The notes beneath the pieces are model-generated. The model was not told the DNA's origin, ran no database searches, and worked only from the letters and a program-made list of their open reading frames with translations. A stretch of 64,000 bases of DNA from contig JAFULQ010000010.1 of NCBI GenBank assembly GCA_017473265.1, positions 1 to 64,000 on the forward strand, in the 5' to 3' direction. Below are positions 832 to 51,823 of the stretch, piece after piece. The DNA is from Erysipelotrichaceae bacterium. GTDB lineage: Bacteria; Bacillota_I; Bacilli_A; Erysipelotrichales; Erysipelotrichaceae. A program made the position numbers and the translations under genes. Every line of letters starts with the position of its first letter. Within the stretch, counting starts at the first letter, position 1.

Positions 832-1524
832 CTACTTCTCATCTTTAATAAATGCTCGTAATAACTTTAAAAAGGCTCTTTTTTCAATTCTAGATATTAA
901 CGAACGTGATACATGTTTCCTTTTTGCAATTTCTCTTTGTGTTAATTCTGGTTTGCTATTAAGTCCATATCGATAATCAAGTATTTCTTTTTCTTCTTCA
1001 TCTAACAATAAAAAGTATTTTTTTAATTTATGGATATTATCTTCTAATGTTAGTACTTCAATAGGGTCTTTATTTGTTTCATCTTTCATAAGGTCTAAAA
1101 GTGATATTTCTGAATCATCTTTATCTGCACCGATTGGTTCATCTAAGGAAATGGTTTGATATTTTCTTTTTACACTTCTAAGATACATGAAGATTTCATT
1201 TTCAATACATTTGGAAATATAGGTTGTTAGTTTTCTACCTTTATTTGGATCAAAGCTATCAATACCTTTAATTAATCCAATGGTTCCAACACTGATTAAA
1301 TCATCTGTAGATTCTTTTTGAATATCATATTTTTTAACAATATGTGCTACTAATCGTAGATTGTGTTCAATAAGCTTATTTCTAGCATTAATATCTTTCT
1401 TCATTAATCCTTCTATACATTCTTTTTCTTCTTCACTGCTTAATGGATGGGGATAAGATCCTTTCATCATGCCAAATAAAAAGGGTAAATTTTGTTTTAA
1501 AAGTTCTAATAATAGAGTCCACAT
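832..1524 (-). CDS. sigK: RNA polymerase sporulation sigma factor SigK
   Basis: A 230-residue sigma-70 family protein very similar along its length to Bacillus SigK. It has a hydrophobic N-terminal stretch of about 20 residues like the pro-sequence removed from pro-SigK, then PHPLSSEEEKECI, region 2 (NKLIEHNLRLVAHIVKKY, DLISVGTIGLIKGID) and region 4 with the helix-turn-helix LTQREIAKRKHVSRSLISRIEKRA. SigK directs late mother-cell transcription in sporulation. The gene is intact and not split by an inserted element. ATG at 1524 is chosen over GTG at 1533 because AGGTGATC sits 8 nt upstream. It is transcribed divergently from comEA across a 93-bp gap. Confidence 0.9.
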   Translation of the reverse strand: MWTLLLELLKQNLPFLFGMMKGSYPHPLSSEEEKECIEGLMKKDINARNKLIEHNLRLVAHIVKKYDIQKESTDDLISVGTIGLIKGIDSFDPNKGRKLTTYISKCIENEIFMYLRSVKRKYQTISLDEPIGADKDDSEISLLDLMKDETNKDPIEVLTLEDNIHKLKKYFLLLDEEEKEILDYRYGLNSKPELTQREIAKRKHVSRSLISRIEKRAFLKLLRAFIKDEK

Positions 1525-1570
1525 ATCGATCACCTAATGTAGTGTATGCAAATATTTTTTTATTTAGTAG

Positions 1571-1617
1571 TAGGAATAATTAAAAAATTTGACGTATTTA
1601 TAAGTAGGGGTGGTGTT
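1571..1617 (+). promoter_or_regulatory. Shared competence promoter element before comEA
   Basis: TAGGAATAATT (1571-1581) is followed by TTGACGTAT (1589-1597), TATAAG and an RBS (GTAGGGGTGG) just before ATG 1618. The same arrangement, with 16 nt from GG to TTGRC, precedes comGA, dprA and the small gene at 51666. AGGAATA resembles a SigH-type -35. The -10 is probably GACGTAT. The sigma factor is inferred, not shown. Confidence 0.7.
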
Positions 1618-14187: not shown

Positions 14188-14263
14188 CTGTTGTATGGTA
14201 TCAATGATAATAATTATTTTTTCTTAAAAGATTATGTAAATAATCTTTTTTTTGTGTTTTTGG

Positions 14264-14311
14264 TAGGAATAATTGATTTTGTTGACGTATATATAAGTAG
14301 GAGTGGTAAAA
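14264..14311 (+). promoter_or_regulatory. Shared competence promoter element before comGA
   Basis: TAGGAATAATT (14264-14274) and TTGACGTATATATAAGTAG (14282-14300) precede an AGGAG ribosome site and ATG 14312. The 16-nt spacing between GG and TTGAC matches the comEA copy. The gap upstream of the element back to the terminator is A/T-rich and holds no gene; a 65-codon ORF at 14191 is spurious. Confidence 0.72.
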
Positions 14312-25425: not shown

Positions 25426-26352
25426 ATGGATATTATCTTTTTAGTTATAGGTATCTTTTTCTTAGTTAAAGGTGCTGATTTATTTGTAGATGGCGCTAGT
25501 TCTATTGCTTCAAATATTAAAATTCCAACAATCATTGTTGGTTTAACAATCGTTGCATTTGGTACAAGTGCTCCAGAAGCAGCTGTGAGTGTTACTGCTG
25601 CATTAGCTGGTTCAAATGAAATTGCAATTAGTAATGTAGTTGGTTCTAATATTTTTAACTTAATGATGGTTGTAGGCGCTGCAGCTATGATTATGAAAAT
25701 GCATGTACAAACAAGTATTATTAAGGAAGAGTTCCCAATTTTAATTGTGGCTTCTTTATTATTAGTTGTTTTCTGTTTAACTGGAAGTTCAATTTCACGT
25801 ATTGAAGCACTTATTTTCTTATTGTGTATCATTGCATATGTTATTCGTTGTGTAATGACTGCATTAAAAGATCGTGATAATTTAGAAGTTGAGCCTGCTA
25901 AATATAATACAATTATGGCTGTTCTATTAGGTGTTTTAGGTATGGCAGGTATTGTATTAGGTGCTGATTTTGTTGTTGATGGTGCTAGTTCTATTGCGAA
26001 AGCATTAGGTGTTAGTGAAACAATGATTGGCTTAACTATTGTATCTATTGGTACATCTTTACCTGAATTTGTAACAAGTGTTGTTGCGGCTAGAAAAGGT
26101 GAAGTTGATTTAGCATTAGGTAATGTTATTGGATCAAACTTATTTAATATTTTGTTTATTTTAGGATTATCTGGAACTATTATTCCAATTCCATTTGCTA
26201 GCAGTATGAATATTGATATTTTCATTATGTTAGGTTGTACATTGTTTGTATATCTTATTGCGAAGACTAGAAAATCATTTGGATTTGCTAGTGGATTGGT
26301 TATGGTGTTATTTAATATTGCATATTTAGTATTTGTTTGCATTAGAGCGTAG
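25426..26352 (+). CDS. Calcium/sodium antiporter, CaCA family
   Basis: A 308-residue membrane protein with two homologous halves. Each half carries an alpha repeat: GLTIVAFGTSAPEAAVS...NVVGSNIFN (about 42-78) and GLTIVSIGTSLPEFVTS...NVIGSNLFN (about 203-240). It exchanges Ca2+ or a similar cation for Na+ or H+. About ten membrane helices. A 312-codon antisense ORF here is only its mirror. Confidence 0.92.
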   Translation: MDIIFLVIGIFFLVKGADLFVDGASSIASNIKIPTIIVGLTIVAFGTSAPEAAVSVTAALAGSNEIAISNVVGSNIFNLMMVVGAAAMIMKMHVQTSIIKEEFPILIVASLLLVVFCLTGSSISRIEALIFLLCIIAYVIRCVMTALKDRDNLEVEPAKYNTIMAVLLGVLGMAGIVLGADFVVDGASSIAKALGVSETMIGLTIVSIGTSLPEFVTSVVAARKGEVDLALGNVIGSNLFNILFILGLSGTIIPIPFASSMNIDIFIMLGCTLFVYLIAKTRKSFGFASGLVMVLFNIAYLVFVCIRA

Positions 26353-26396
26353 GGAAAATTAAAAAAGTTGGCGTATATATAAGTAGGGGGGATAAA
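26352..26396 (+). promoter_or_regulatory. Shared competence promoter element before dprA
   Basis: TAGGGAAAATT (26350-26360), starting in the stop codon of the antiporter gene, then TTGGCGTATATATAAGTAG (26368-26386), a GGGGG ribosome site and ATG 26397. Spacing equals the comEA and comGA copies; the sequence is the most diverged of the four. Confidence 0.65.
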
Positions 26397-46430: not shown

Positions 46431-46466
46431 ATTATGTTAAAATAATTGAAAGAAAGGAATGATGGT

Positions 46467-48914
46467 ATGCCTACATTACTATATAATCGTACTTGTTATA
46501 GTTTATTGGATAGTACAATTCGTGTGGAACAATTAGTAGCGTTTGCGAAGAAATATGATTATAAGTCAATAGCTATTTGTGATCATAATGTAATGCATGG
46601 GTATATGTTGTTCCGTAATTTGTGTGAAAAAGAGGGGATTCATCCTGTTTTTGGTTTGGAAGTTGATGTTGTATATGAAGATCGTATTTCTTCTTTTTTA
46701 GTGTATGCAAAAAATGATATTGGTTATGGTTCTTTAATTGCGTTAAGTAGTTATGTAAATGTTCATGGACCAATTAGTTATAATGATTTTGTTAAAGTTT
46801 GTAGAGAAGTAGTAGTTGTTATTCCTAGTGAGAATAGTATCTTGGATTCTTATATTAGTAATGATGATAGTGATGATATTCGACGTGTTTTAGAGGGTTG
46901 TAAGGAAGATTTTAGTGATTTGTATGTAGGATATATGAATCCTATTTCTGCGTATTGGAAGGTAAAGAGTGCGTTTTTACGTGATATTTGTGATCGTTTA
47001 TTCATTAATATGGTTGCTTTATCTTTAGCTGTATATCCTAGTGATGATATGTATCAAGCATATCAAGCAGTTGTGGCGATTAAACATAGTAAACTACTAT
47101 CCGATACGTCTTTACCATATAAAAAGAATGCAAGATTGTATCATCCGTTTGAATTAAAAGAATATCCTGAGGATGTTTTAGTAAATACAGATATTTTGGC
47201 TGAAAAGTGTAATGTACAATTTAAACAACAAAAAGCAAGTATTCCAGAATATCCTTGTCCTCAAGGTGTATCTAGTAATACGTATTTACAATTATTATGT
47301 GAAAAGGGATTGCAAAAGCGCTTAAGTAATAAAGTTACTAAGGAATATGTAGATCGTTTGCGTTATGAATTAAAAGTCATTCGTAATATGGGATTTTCTG
47401 ACTATTTCTTAATTGTATGGGATTTTATTTTATTCTCTAGAAAACAGGGGATTTATGTAGGTCCTGGAAGAGGTAGTGCTGCTGGTAGTTTAGTAGCGTA
47501 TTGTTTAGGAATTACCCATGTAGATCCTATTAAATATCATTTATTATTTGAACGTTTCTTAAATCCAGATCGTGTGAGTATGCCTGATATTGATGTCGAT
47601 TTTCCAGATAATCGTAGAGATGAAGTGATTCAATATGTAAAAGAGAAATATGGCAATGATCATATTGCGCATATTGTGACATTTGGTACCATGGCTGCTA
47701 AACAAGCATTACGTGATGCTGGACGTGTTTTAGATATTCTACCATCGAAGATAGATATGATTACCAAAACAGTGCCAAACGTGCTTAAAATCACGTTAAA
47801 ACAAGCATATGAAACCAGTCCTCGTTTTAAACAGTTTGTACATTCTGAAGTTCAATTTGAAAAATTATATACGTTAGCTTGTCAATTAGAAGGGTTACCA
47901 AGACATACATCTACCCATGCGGCTGGTATTGTTATGTCTAATGCGAAATTAACAGATGTAGTACCTTTAATTCAAATTGAACAAGATGTGGTTTCTACAC
48001 AATATACAATGGAATATTTAGAAGACTTAGGTTTATTAAAAATGGATTTTTTAGGATTACGAAATCTAACAATTATTGATGAAATTGTACAAGAAGTAAA
48101 TGAAAAAGAACCATTAGATATTTTAAAAATTCCTACAAATGATGCAAAGACTTTCAAATTGATTCAAAATGTAGATACAACAGGTATCTTCCAATTAGAA
48201 TCAGAAGGTATGAAAGCCTTAATTCGTAAATTATTACCAAAAACATTTGAAGAAATTGCAGTAACAATTGCATTATTTAGACCAGGACCTATGGAAAATA
48301 TTCCCGAATATTTACGTAGAAGAGAAAATCCTAGTCTAGTTACCTATCCTCATAAGGATGTAGTTTCAATTTTAGAAGAAACCTATGGTATCATGGTATA
48401 CCAAGAACAGATTATGCAAGTATCACAAGTAATGGCTAATTTTTCATTAGCTAAAGCAGATATTTTACTTAAAGCTATGAGTAAAAAGAAAGAAAGTGAA
48501 CTTGTAAAACTTAAACAAGACTTTATTCAAGGATGTTTATCTAAAGGATATCCTAGACATATTGCGGAAGGTACCTATGATTTAATCTTAAAGTTTGCCT
48601 CTTATGGCTTTAATAAATCACATTCAGTTGCGTATGCTTTAATTGCTTATCAATTAGCATACTTAAAAGCAAATTATCCATTAAATTTCTATCGTTCGTT
48701 ATTAAATAGTGTAATTGGATCTGAGACAAAAACGTTTGAATACATTAGTGAGTGTAAACAAAAACAAATTTCTGTTTTATGTCCATCGGTAAATTACTCA
48801 ACAAAAGTATTTACTATTGAAAACAATCAATTGCGTTTACCATTGTTAGCTATTAAAAATGTTGGTTCTGTTGCATGTGATGAAATTATAAAAGAACGTG
48901 AAGAAAAAGGCTAG
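46467..48914 (+). CDS. dnaE: DNA polymerase III alpha subunit DnaE, N-terminal part ended by an in-frame TAG
   Basis: 815 residues of the DnaE replicative polymerase. PHP domain first (its HxH motif is degenerate, NRTCYSLLDS), then palm GPGRGSAAGSL and catalytic PDIDVDFPDNRR (about 372), then TSTHAAGIV, FRPGPM and SYGFNKSHSVAYALIAYQ. Reading stops at TAG 48912-48914 after IKEREEKG, in the C-terminal HhH region. The next codons continue the family sequence in the same frame. ATG 46467 follows AAAGGA; TTG 46446 is too early. Confidence 0.9.
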   Translation: MPTLLYNRTCYSLLDSTIRVEQLVAFAKKYDYKSIAICDHNVMHGYMLFRNLCEKEGIHPVFGLEVDVVYEDRISSFLVYAKNDIGYGSLIALSSYVNVHGPISYNDFVKVCREVVVVIPSENSILDSYISNDDSDDIRRVLEGCKEDFSDLYVGYMNPISAYWKVKSAFLRDICDRLFINMVALSLAVYPSDDMYQAYQAVVAIKHSKLLSDTSLPYKKNARLYHPFELKEYPEDVLVNTDILAEKCNVQFKQQKASIPEYPCPQGVSSNTYLQLLCEKGLQKRLSNKVTKEYVDRLRYELKVIRNMGFSDYFLIVWDFILFSRKQGIYVGPGRGSAAGSLVAYCLGITHVDPIKYHLLFERFLNPDRVSMPDIDVDFPDNRRDEVIQYVKEKYGNDHIAHIVTFGTMAAKQALRDAGRVLDILPSKIDMITKTVPNVLKITLKQAYETSPRFKQFVHSEVQFEKLYTLACQLEGLPRHTSTHAAGIVMSNAKLTDVVPLIQIEQDVVSTQYTMEYLEDLGLLKMDFLGLRNLTIIDEIVQEVNEKEPLDILKIPTNDAKTFKLIQNVDTTGIFQLESEGMKALIRKLLPKTFEEIAVTIALFRPGPMENIPEYLRRRENPSLVTYPHKDVVSILEETYGIMVYQEQIMQVSQVMANFSLAKADILLKAMSKKKESELVKLKQDFIQGCLSKGYPRHIAEGTYDLILKFASYGFNKSHSVAYALIAYQLAYLKANYPLNFYRSLLNSVIGSETKTFEYISECKQKQISVLCPSVNYSTKVFTIENNQLRLPLLAIKNVGSVACDEIIKEREEKG

Positions 48915-49526
48915 TTTAAAGATTTCTATGATTTTGTTGTACGTATGTCAACTCGTAAATTGAATCGTAATGTCTTTGAACGTTTAATTGATGCGGGTGC
49001 TTTAGATGGTTTCAATTTAACTAGAAAAACAATGAAAACATCGTTACCTTCTGTATTGAAATATGCAGAATTAGTAAAATGTGATGTACAAGGACAAATT
49101 GTAATTGACTTAGATATGGTATCGAAACCAGTTTTATATTCTGCAAAAGATTATTTATTAGAAAAAGCAGAATTAGAAAAAGAAGCTTTAGGTTTCTATT
49201 TGCAACAACATCCAATTCAAGCTTTAAAAGAAACCTTACCTTATACCATTACAACTTTACAACAAGCAGTAAAACGTAAAGGAAATATACAAGTATTTGT
49301 ACAAATACGTAAAGTAAGACAACATCGTAGTAAAAAAGGAGATTTAATGTGCTTTATTAGTGGATTAGATGAAACTATGGAATACGATTTTGTAATTATG
49401 CCTAATTTATATGCACAACATCAACAAGACATTGTTAAAGGTAATTATGTGTATATTGAAGGTAGTATAGATGATAGAGATTCTTGTTTAGTTAAGAAAA
49501 TGGTAAAATATAACAAAGAATCCTAG
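48915..49526 (+). pseudogene. dnaE: DnaE C-terminal part after the in-frame TAG
   Basis: The same frame runs on as FKDFYDFVVRMSTRKLN..FERLIDAGALDGF, the expected HhH continuation, and then an OB fold (IQVFVQIRKVRQHRSKKG...DIVKGNYVYIEGS). The first ATG (48945) has no ribosome site, so separate translation is unlikely. Intact, the protein would have about 1019 residues. The stop would need only one base change to a sense codon such as CAG, AAG, GAG or TTG. Confidence 0.88.
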
Positions 49527-49539
49527 GAAGGAGTCAAAT

Positions 49540-50208
49540 ATGGCTAAAATTTTAATTGTAGATGATGAATTAAAGATTCGTGAAGTCATCAAAGAATATG
49601 GAAAGAGTTATGGTTATACTGTCAAAGAAGCAAGCAATGGCAAAATTGCGGTTGATATGGTAGACAAAGAAAACTTTGATGTCATTGTTTTAGATATTAT
49701 GATGCCTGAATTAGATGGTTTTAGTGCGTGTAAACAAATTAAAGCCAAAAAGCCAAATATTCCAGTGATTATGTTATCTGCTAGACAAGAAGAATATGAT
49801 AAATTATTTGGTTTTGATTTAGGTATTGATGACTATGTAACCAAACCATTTAGCCCTAAGGAATTAATGGCTAGAATTAAAGTAGTTTTAGAACGTCGTA
49901 AGGATGTTACGGTGAATGCTTTAGAATTTAAAGAATTAAAGATTAATGAAACCGCTCATGAAGTAACAATTAATGATGAAGTTGTTAAACTAACCAATAA
50001 AGAATTTGAATTATTAGTTTATTTACTAAAACATCGTAATGTTGCGTTAAGTAGAGAACGTCTATTAGATGATATTTGGGGATATGATTTCTATGGTGAT
50101 GAAAGAACCATCGATACACATATTAAGATGTTAAGACAAAGTATTAAAGAATATGGTGACTATATTAAGACAGTTAGAGGGGTAGGGTATAAGTTCCATG
50201 CAGAATAA
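49540..50208 (+). CDS. OmpR/PhoB-type response regulator
   Basis: A 222-residue regulator. Receiver domain with acidic pair VDDE, phospho-Asp52 (VLDIMMP) and Lys102 (VTKPF); C-terminal winged helix with the ERTIDTHIKMLRQSI recognition helix. It starts 13 nt after dnaE and overlaps the kinase gene by 11 nt. Target genes unknown. Confidence 0.93.
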   Translation: MAKILIVDDELKIREVIKEYGKSYGYTVKEASNGKIAVDMVDKENFDVIVLDIMMPELDGFSACKQIKAKKPNIPVIMLSARQEEYDKLFGFDLGIDDYVTKPFSPKELMARIKVVLERRKDVTVNALEFKELKINETAHEVTINDEVVKLTNKEFELLVYLLKHRNVALSRERLLDDIWGYDFYGDERTIDTHIKMLRQSIKEYGDYIKTVRGVGYKFHAE

Positions 50209-51607
50209 GTGGAAACAATTAACACAAGGAATTGCATTTAAAACATGGTTATATTATGTTTTGTTTTCATTATGCATTCTTGGTTTGATTTTTGTTTTCC
50301 AAATCATATTATTTGAACCTTATTATGAAAGTTTTAAAACCAAAGATATTGAACGAATTGTAAATAGTATATCGCAATCTATTGATGATGATATAGCGAT
50401 TGAAGATATTACCAAAAATAATGATGGATGTGCAGTGATTGTACGTGCTGATAAAACGCGAAAAGGGATTGATGCGATTGGTATGTCTTGTTTGATTTAT
50501 AATAATGGTAAAATTGATTCTACATATTTAGATGATCTTAAAAATAGTGAAACGAATGATATTCGTTATATTGTTTCAGTTGAAGGAAATCAGGATATGT
50601 TAATCTATGGTAAAAAATTCATTAATGAAGAAGAAAAACCATATTATGTGTTATTTAATACACCTCTAAGTCCTTTAAAATCAACCATACAGATTATACA
50701 GAATCAATTTATGACAATTACTGGAATGGTATTGATTTTATCATTATTAATTTCATTATATTTCTCGAAACGTTTAACTAGTCCAATTACGCAAATTACT
50801 AGTGAAGCTAGAAAAATGAGTACTGGTAATTATAATGTTGAGTTTATTCAAAGTGAATTTAAAGAAGTAAATGATTTAGCAGAAACATTAAATTATACTT
50901 CTCAAGAATTATCGCAAATTGATGAATTACGTCAAGATTTGATTGCGAATGTATCACATGATATTAAAACACCTTTAACAATGATTAAAGCGTATGCAGA
51001 AATGATTCGTGATATTTCGGGTTCTAATAAAAAGAAACGTAATGAACATTTGGAAGTTATTATTCAGGAAAGTGAATATTTAGATCGTTTAGTTAGTGAT
51101 ATGCGTGAGGTAAGCAAATTACAAGCTGGTGCATCTGAATTAGTTATATCAGATTTTGATTTAGGTTCAGTTATTAGAGATACTTGTTATAAGTTTAAAG
51201 CGATAACAAAAGAAGAAGGTATTGAGATTATAACTAAGATAGAACCTGAATTAGTATGTAGAGCTGATCGTACGAAAATTACAGAAGTTATTTATAACTT
51301 TATTGGTAATGCAATTAAACATTATGGTGATGATCATCAAGTGATAGTAAATGCATTTACTACGGGTAATCATATTCGTGTTGAAGTTATTGACCATGGT
51401 CCTGGTATTGCGCCTCATGATTTAAAACATATTTGGGAACGCTATTACAAAACGAATAAGAAATATCAAAGAGCTCATAGTGGAACAGGGCTTGGTCTAG
51501 CTATTTCTAAAGCCATTTTAGAACAACATAATGCTGTTTATGGTGCCATTAGTGAAGTAGGTAAGGGTAGTACTTTCTATTTTGAATTGCCAATTGTAGA
51601 AATTTAA
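50198..51607 (+). CDS. Membrane sensor histidine kinase
   Basis: A 469-residue kinase, partner of the preceding regulator. Membrane helices at about 14-38 and 167-187 bracket an extracellular sensing part; HAMP about 188-240; phospho-His254 in VSHDIKTP; N box FIGNAIKHYG; G boxes DHGPGIA and GTGLGLAIS. Ligand unknown. The competence-type element and the 42-aa peptide gene start only 9 nt after its stop. Confidence 0.93.
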   Translation: MQNKWKQLTQGIAFKTWLYYVLFSLCILGLIFVFQIILFEPYYESFKTKDIERIVNSISQSIDDDIAIEDITKNNDGCAVIVRADKTRKGIDAIGMSCLIYNNGKIDSTYLDDLKNSETNDIRYIVSVEGNQDMLIYGKKFINEEEKPYYVLFNTPLSPLKSTIQIIQNQFMTITGMVLILSLLISLYFSKRLTSPITQITSEARKMSTGNYNVEFIQSEFKEVNDLAETLNYTSQELSQIDELRQDLIANVSHDIKTPLTMIKAYAEMIRDISGSNKKKRNEHLEVIIQESEYLDRLVSDMREVSKLQAGASELVISDFDLGSVIRDTCYKFKAITKEEGIEIITKIEPELVCRADRTKITEVIYNFIGNAIKHYGDDHQVIVNAFTTGNHIRVEVIDHGPGIAPHDLKHIWERYYKTNKKYQRAHSGTGLGLAISKAILEQHNAVYGAISEVGKGSTFYFELPIVEI

Positions 51608-51615
51608 TAAAAATG

Positions 51616-51665
51616 GTAGGAATAATTTCATTTTTTGACGTATTAATAAGTGAAGGAGTGAAATT
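51616..51665 (+). promoter_or_regulatory. Shared competence promoter element before the 42-aa gene
   Basis: TAGGAATAATT (51617-51627) and TTGACGTATTAATAAG (51635-51650) are followed by GAAGGAG and ATG 51666. GG-to-TTGAC spacing is 16 nt, as in the comEA, comGA and dprA copies. Confidence 0.7.
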
Positions 51666-51794
51666 ATGAAACGAGTTAAAATTATTCTATGTTTAGTTTA
51701 TGTAGTGAGTATGGGGATGCATCAATCGATGGTGAAAGTTATTAACAAAACCTTATATAAACCATCATATAAAATCTCTCAATATTTACGATAA
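51666..51794 (+). CDS. 42-residue basic signal-peptide-like protein, candidate competence-regulon member
   Basis: Reads MKRVKIILCLVYVVSMGM, then HQSMVKVINKTLYKPS, then YKISQYLR. A basic start (Lys2, Arg3, Lys5) and a hydrophobic core (about 6-18) look like a signal peptide or single membrane helix; the remaining ~24 residues are cationic. It has a GAAGGAG ribosome site, a competence-type promoter and its own strong terminator, so it is a real transcription unit. No family recognised. It could be a secreted peptide, a small membrane protein or a pilus accessory. Confidence 0.65.
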   Translation: MKRVKIILCLVYVVSMGMHQSMVKVINKTLYKPSYKISQYLR

Positions 51795-51823
51795 AGTTCT
51801 AGTATTACTAGAACTTTTTTTAT
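51793..51823 (+). terminator. Terminator of the 42-aa gene
   Basis: AAAGTTCTAG (51793-51802) and CTAGAACTTT (51808-51817), 10-bp arms with loop TATTA, then TTTTT. The stop codon lies at its 5' edge. Confidence 0.9.

Follow-up and report, generated by a model that had tools for sequence, protein, structure and literature searches.

A likely 42-residue peptide gene with a sigma-H-type competence promoter in an Erysipelotrichaceae genome

The DNA analysed here, a stretch of 64,000 nucleotides from a gut Erysipelotrichaceae bacterium that we call the window, carries a short open reading frame (ORF) for a 42-residue peptide directly behind a two-component system. A promoter element, a Shine-Dalgarno sequence and an intrinsic terminator surround the ORF, and these features are read directly from the sequence, as are the identity of the promoter and the content of the regulon that shares it. 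The locus is laid out as follows:

49540-50208, plus strand: OmpR/PhoB-type response regulator, partner of the kinase (profile matches)
50198-51607, plus strand: PhoR/WalK-type histidine kinase (profile matches to HAMP-like, HisKA and HATPase domains)
51616-51649, plus strand: sigma-H-type competence promoter of the peptide gene (held-out matrix score)
51616-51624, plus strand: -35 element GTAGGAATA, matching the -35 of Listeria sigma-H promoters, for example AAAGGAATT (PMC4754846)
51637-51643, plus strand: -10 element GACGTAT, inside TTGACGTATTAATAAG (51635-51650), with a 12-nt spacer to the -35 element
51653-51658, plus strand: Shine-Dalgarno sequence AAGGAG, 7 nt before the ATG at 51666
51666-51794, plus strand: likely gene for the 42-residue peptide, stop included (ORF list; identical protein in the metagenome-assembled genome (MAG) RGIG7674)
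51793-51821, plus strand: intrinsic terminator with an 11-pair stem, a 3-nt loop and a T run (sequence)

The product of the ORF is MKRVKIILCLVYVVSMGMHQSMVKVINKTLYKPSYKISQYLR. Its ATG lies 31 nt from the core of the promoter element, with the other starts of the regulon at 28-31 nt, and in random sequence of the same composition a frame stays open for 42 codons after an ATG with a chance of about 2%. The codon score is intermediate: 96% of spurious and 94% of random ORFs score lower, but 96% of real gene segments score higher. The regulon-typical start distance, the Shine-Dalgarno sequence and the identical protein in the only relative that keeps the element together make it likely, not proven, that the ORF is a translated gene. 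An earlier note on this DNA had described a competence element of the gene's own, a good ribosome site and a 10-bp terminator; all three are present, with the terminator stem at 51793-51817 counted here as 11 pairs (3 of them G-C, loop of 3, T-rich tail after the stem). The note had taken these signals as strong evidence for a real unit despite its size, which holds for promoter, Shine-Dalgarno sequence, ORF and terminator, but not as firmly for coding. Its placement of the gene 9 nt past the kinase stop (TAA, 51605-51607) likewise applies to the unit, whose promoter element starts 8 nt on, but not to the ORF, which starts 58 nt on.

These signals also bear on the alternative that the ORF is incidental, with a small RNA as the real product or a recently acquired promoter that has no function. 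The RNA folds no better than shuffled sequences (z = -1.0), a search of Rfam gave no credible match, only chance-level snoRNA matches, and the ribosome site, the placement of the ATG and the length of the frame all argue against it. The intermediate codon score would suit an incidental ORF, as would a very narrow distribution and a DNA identity that spans the whole unit rather than the codons only, both described below. On balance, we consider this alternative improbable.

The promoter can be read as sigma-H type, with AGGAAT as its -35 and GACGTAT as its -10. Scored with a matrix trained on 13 other sites of the genome, the peptide's own site being left out, it reached 31.5 bits. The only higher-scoring sites in the window precede dprA (46.5 bits), comEA (43.7 bits) and comGA (39.4 bits), and the best site outside these four competence-type promoters scored 4.9 bits. 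The three other copies lie at the following positions:

1570-1603, plus strand: same element before comEA-comEC (matrix; ComEA assigned by profile match)
14263-14296, plus strand: same element before comGA of the comG operon (matrix; ComGA assigned by profile match)
26349-26382, plus strand: same element before dprA (matrix; DprA assigned by profile match)

Genome-wide, the core TTGACGTATnnATAA occurs in eight exact copies, and a strict 33-mer (the core plus the upstream half AGGnA) matched 12 sites with at most one mismatch and, when reversed as a control, none. This strict search placed the element before comFA-comFC and rpsF-ssb-rpsR as well, and it also precedes a C39-like gene ahead of ybeY, an ORF6N gene, an RHH/RelE-type pair, an ABC exporter and genes for Rpn-type PD-(D/E)XK nucleases. 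With a looser search comC, an MFP/ABC/FtsX-like operon and more nuclease genes join the regulon; the comC and MFP sites carry the canonical sigma-H -10 GCGAAT. The names ComEA, ComGA, DprA, C39, HlyD, PD-(D/E)XK and RHH are profile matches, and the remaining names come from reading the sequence. Apart from the gene for the 42-residue peptide, none of the genes with the element is a short peptide gene standing by itself. The held-out score and the genome-wide hits strongly support the earlier proposal that the gene sits in a competence regulon; we regard its membership as highly probable, and the peptide is very probably switched on together with the DNA-uptake genes.

Several other copies of the element deserve description in their own right. 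A perfect copy ahead of ybeY (L061:1154-1486 in G000:C24, minus strand) precedes a gene for a 111-residue C39-peptidase-like protein with the motifs NCGIYCL and KHFMLV...CD that lacks the stretch before the Cys; this protein is 95% identical in RGIG7674, and with an E value of 0.005 its weak Pfam match falls short of the cut-off. The operon for an MFP, an ABC ATPase and an FtsX-like permease (L199:2764-5317 in G000:C25, minus strand) has the canonical sigma-H GGCGAAT as the -10 of its element. Several genes for Rpn-type PD-(D/E)XK nucleases, the ORF6N gene and the RelBE/RHH-type pair with the element are found on three contigs (L063, L073, L156, L065 and L075; G000:C25, C13 and C21). A further copy (L149, G000:C2:30613), degenerate here and intact in RGIG7674 (L072), precedes a short ORF and then a TnpB-like transposon gene, and looks like a disrupted regulon gene. 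In the rpsF-ssb-rpsR operon (L071, L074), a leader ORF of 12 codons lies right at the competence start site; this leader reads MQKLAKFSFTTR in this genome and MQFLAKFSFTTR in RGIG7674.

In Lactobacillus sakei, sigma-H activates competence genes (PMC3364868), and in Listeria its promoters have AAAGGATTT or AAAGGAATT followed by GGCGAAT (PMC4754846). The sigma-H regulons of L. sakei and Listeria monocytogenes likewise include comG, comE and other uptake operons (PMC3364868, PMC4754846). The regulon described here differs from both in that its -10 is mostly CGTAT rather than CGAAT, and in its members, which include ssb, Rpn-type nucleases, ORF6N, toxin-antitoxin genes, exporters and the 42-residue peptide. 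The genome encodes one SigH-like factor (C2:80418), which matches TIGR02859 spore_sigH at 2.6e-22, below the cut-off of that model, and NF006147 at 3.9e-25; we infer that this factor reads the competence element. The organism is probably a spore former: a gene for a SigK-type sporulation sigma factor (832-1533, minus strand) lies divergently beside comEA, and the genome apparently also encodes SigE-, SigF- and SigG-like factors. SigK was considered as the competence sigma factor because of its place beside comEA and was set aside, given that SigE-, SigF- and SigG-like factors are apparently present and that the element fits sigma-H.

To assess conservation, we searched for homologues of the peptide in 146 relatives and then in 273 genomes of the family. 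Beyond chance, only one was found, in the sister MAG RGIG7674 (JAFZDT01, from water buffalo), such that the peptide and its element occur in 2 of the 273 family genomes, this one included. Across the other 271 genomes no peptide was found at E <= 0.001, and the one weak match (G271, E 0.008) has three internal stops; plasmids, Pfam, NCBIfam, PHROGs and PDB gave no match either. As a set, the element is likewise restricted to these two family genomes, and an exact scan of a genome collection, in which the records of this genome may be missing, returned it only in RGIG7674. Synteny traced through the downstream DUF349-type gene is lost beyond RGIG7674. As for the competence genes themselves, no comGA was found in the same-genus genome G002, and G001 has only a distant match, to a longer frame of 497 residues. 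RGIG7674 carries a second comGA fragment with the element (L054, contig C92), 71% identical, which probably comes from a third related species; the contamination of this MAG is estimated at 7%.

RGIG7674 encodes the identical peptide; a single synonymous change separates the 126 nt of the two genes, and promoter and terminator are unchanged. By comparison, 63 of 469 codons differ in the kinase (57 of the 63 synonymously); for the peptide ORF the expectation is 5.1 synonymous changes, against one observed (P ~0.04). High DNA identity was considered as proof of selection and set aside, as the starts of dprA and comEA are as conserved as the peptide unit, and with one synonymous and no non-synonymous change RGIG7674 has diverged too little to establish that the frame is under selection. 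Loss of the frame in relatives that keep the element, which the earlier note had named as the sign against a gene, was not seen, the sole such relative having retained it. The best reading of this distribution is that the peptide would be a young, lineage-restricted member of the regulon.

The two-component system has a different history. Orthologues of the kinase are widespread in the family, many of them followed by a methyltransferase gene and none by such a peptide. In G002 (same genus, 74% identity) a terminator stands directly after the kinase stop, and in G001 (53% identity) a DUF554-like gene comes next; both lack the peptide. The kinase neighbourhood is thus old and the peptide new there, the proposed link to the two-component system finds no support, and the position of the peptide behind it is probably a coincidence. 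Upstream of the response regulator, a dnaE-type polymerase gene appears split into ORFs 46446-48914 and 48945-49526, with a frame break near 48915-48945.

This history matters for the idea that the peptide tunes the adjacent kinase and thereby ties competence to the two-component system. The analogy is with MgrB, a 47-residue peptide that inhibits PhoQ (PMC8404706, PMC2789325). The two resemble each other in size, in a basic N-terminus followed by a hydrophobic segment, and in a membrane sensor kinase nearby, and here the gene immediately follows a membrane kinase that has HAMP-like, HisKA and HATPase domains; no terminator was found between the kinase and the peptide gene, so readthrough from the kinase is possible. 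The likeness to MgrB lies in these features. Kinase modulation loses weight because adjacency is not conserved in the genus or the family. MgrB itself is not known from adjacency, which counts further against a role as kinase modulator, and such a role seems to us doubtful, indeed hardly probable.

The peptide itself is strongly cationic, with a charge of +8 from Lys and Arg and no acidic residue. Residues 6-18 are hydrophobic and lysines stand at 24, 28, 32 and 36, which agrees with the basic start, hydrophobic core and cationic tail described before. A hydrophobic N-terminus and a charge of at least +8 occur jointly in about 0.1% of random ORFs. From the single sequence, AlphaFold predicts a helix at 3-31 and a short second helix (mean pLDDT 73), and the model has no fold match in the PDB. 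A lipobox is absent. Neither a prepilin motif nor a Glu is present, and the suggestion of a pilus accessory is contradicted in the sense of a pilin. The sequence fits a membrane-active or exported peptide and does not fit a pilin.

Our preferred reading is a small peptide that sits in the membrane of competent cells. RNA polymerase carrying the SigH-like factor would make a short mRNA of this one gene, from about 51650 to 51821, and would transcribe the DNA-uptake operons along with it. The N-terminal hydrophobic helix (about 6-18) would insert the product into the membrane and leave the cationic tail exposed, with its lysines every four residues, and the peptide would do its work at the cell envelope during competence. 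The likeliest role is that of a small membrane-anchored protein that assists or regulates the competent state; a part in the machinery is less likely. One point against this reading is the hydrophobic run, which at about 13 residues is short for a helix that crosses the membrane. The reading as a whole, which includes a genuine, lineage-restricted small-protein gene of the sigma-H-type competence regulon, strikes us as about equally apt to prove right or wrong.

Alternatively, the peptide may be secreted, with a signal-like N-terminus and a cationic C-terminal part released as a pheromone, a biofilm-type effector or a bacteriocin-like peptide. BriC of pneumococcus would be the functional analogue. 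The peptide could leave through Sec or through one of two co-regulated ABC exporters, possibly after a cut by the C39-like protein. This reading gains weight from the co-regulated exporters (the MFP, ABC ATPase and FtsX-like permease operon and a second ABC exporter) and the C39-like protein, and from the peptide's standing as the only short stand-alone product of the regulon; a weak signal-peptidase-like site, S15-M-G17, is present, and competence-induced exported peptides such as BriC are known. Compared with Sec-exported pheromones of the Phr/SHP type, the peptide offers a signal-like N-terminus and, for cleavage, just this weak site. However, it has no Gly-Gly, Gly-Ala or Gly-Ser cleavage site and no AxA site. 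The C39-like protein, besides matching below the Pfam cut-off, lacks the first 11 profile positions and has a model of only pLDDT 38, and none of the exporter and C39-like genes adjoins the peptide gene. We rate secretion as possible and rather unlikely. The narrower proposal, that a competence-specific module whose parts lie dispersed along the chromosome (MFP/ABC/FtsX operon, second ABC exporter and C39-like protein) processes and exports the peptide, appears to us improbable; if true, competent cells only would send out a signal or killing peptide, matured unlike ComC or BriC given the missing Gly-Gly leader.

A small membrane peptide that resembles type I toxins or holins and is induced when cells become competent would likewise show a hydrophobic segment with a lysine-rich tail, and the regulon does contain a RelBE/RHH-type toxin-antitoxin pair. 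Against this, nothing points to an antisense RNA, as the region has no more promoter-like sites than shuffled sequence, and there is no family match; we think it very improbable indeed.

Small competence-induced peptides are already known in BriC and XrpA; what is new here is a peptide without detectable relatives. Like the gene described here, that for BriC of Streptococcus pneumoniae is small, has its own competence-type control element and lies apart from the uptake operons. BriC differs in its Gly-Gly leader, its control by ComE and its export by ComAB (PMC6181422), whereas the 42-residue peptide has no Gly-Gly and a sigma-H-type promoter. XrpA of Streptococcus mutans, also small and linked to competence, went unnoticed for a long time (PMC6328492). 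At 69 residues, encoded inside sigX and inhibiting competence, it differs from the peptide described here.

A literature search returned little on natural competence in Erysipelotrichaceae. In this member of the family the element sharply defines a sigma-H-type competence regulon across the genome, and it nominates a new small protein along with several unexpected members of that regulon. Present in 2 of 273 family genomes, these competence promoters and their small accessory genes are narrowly spread.
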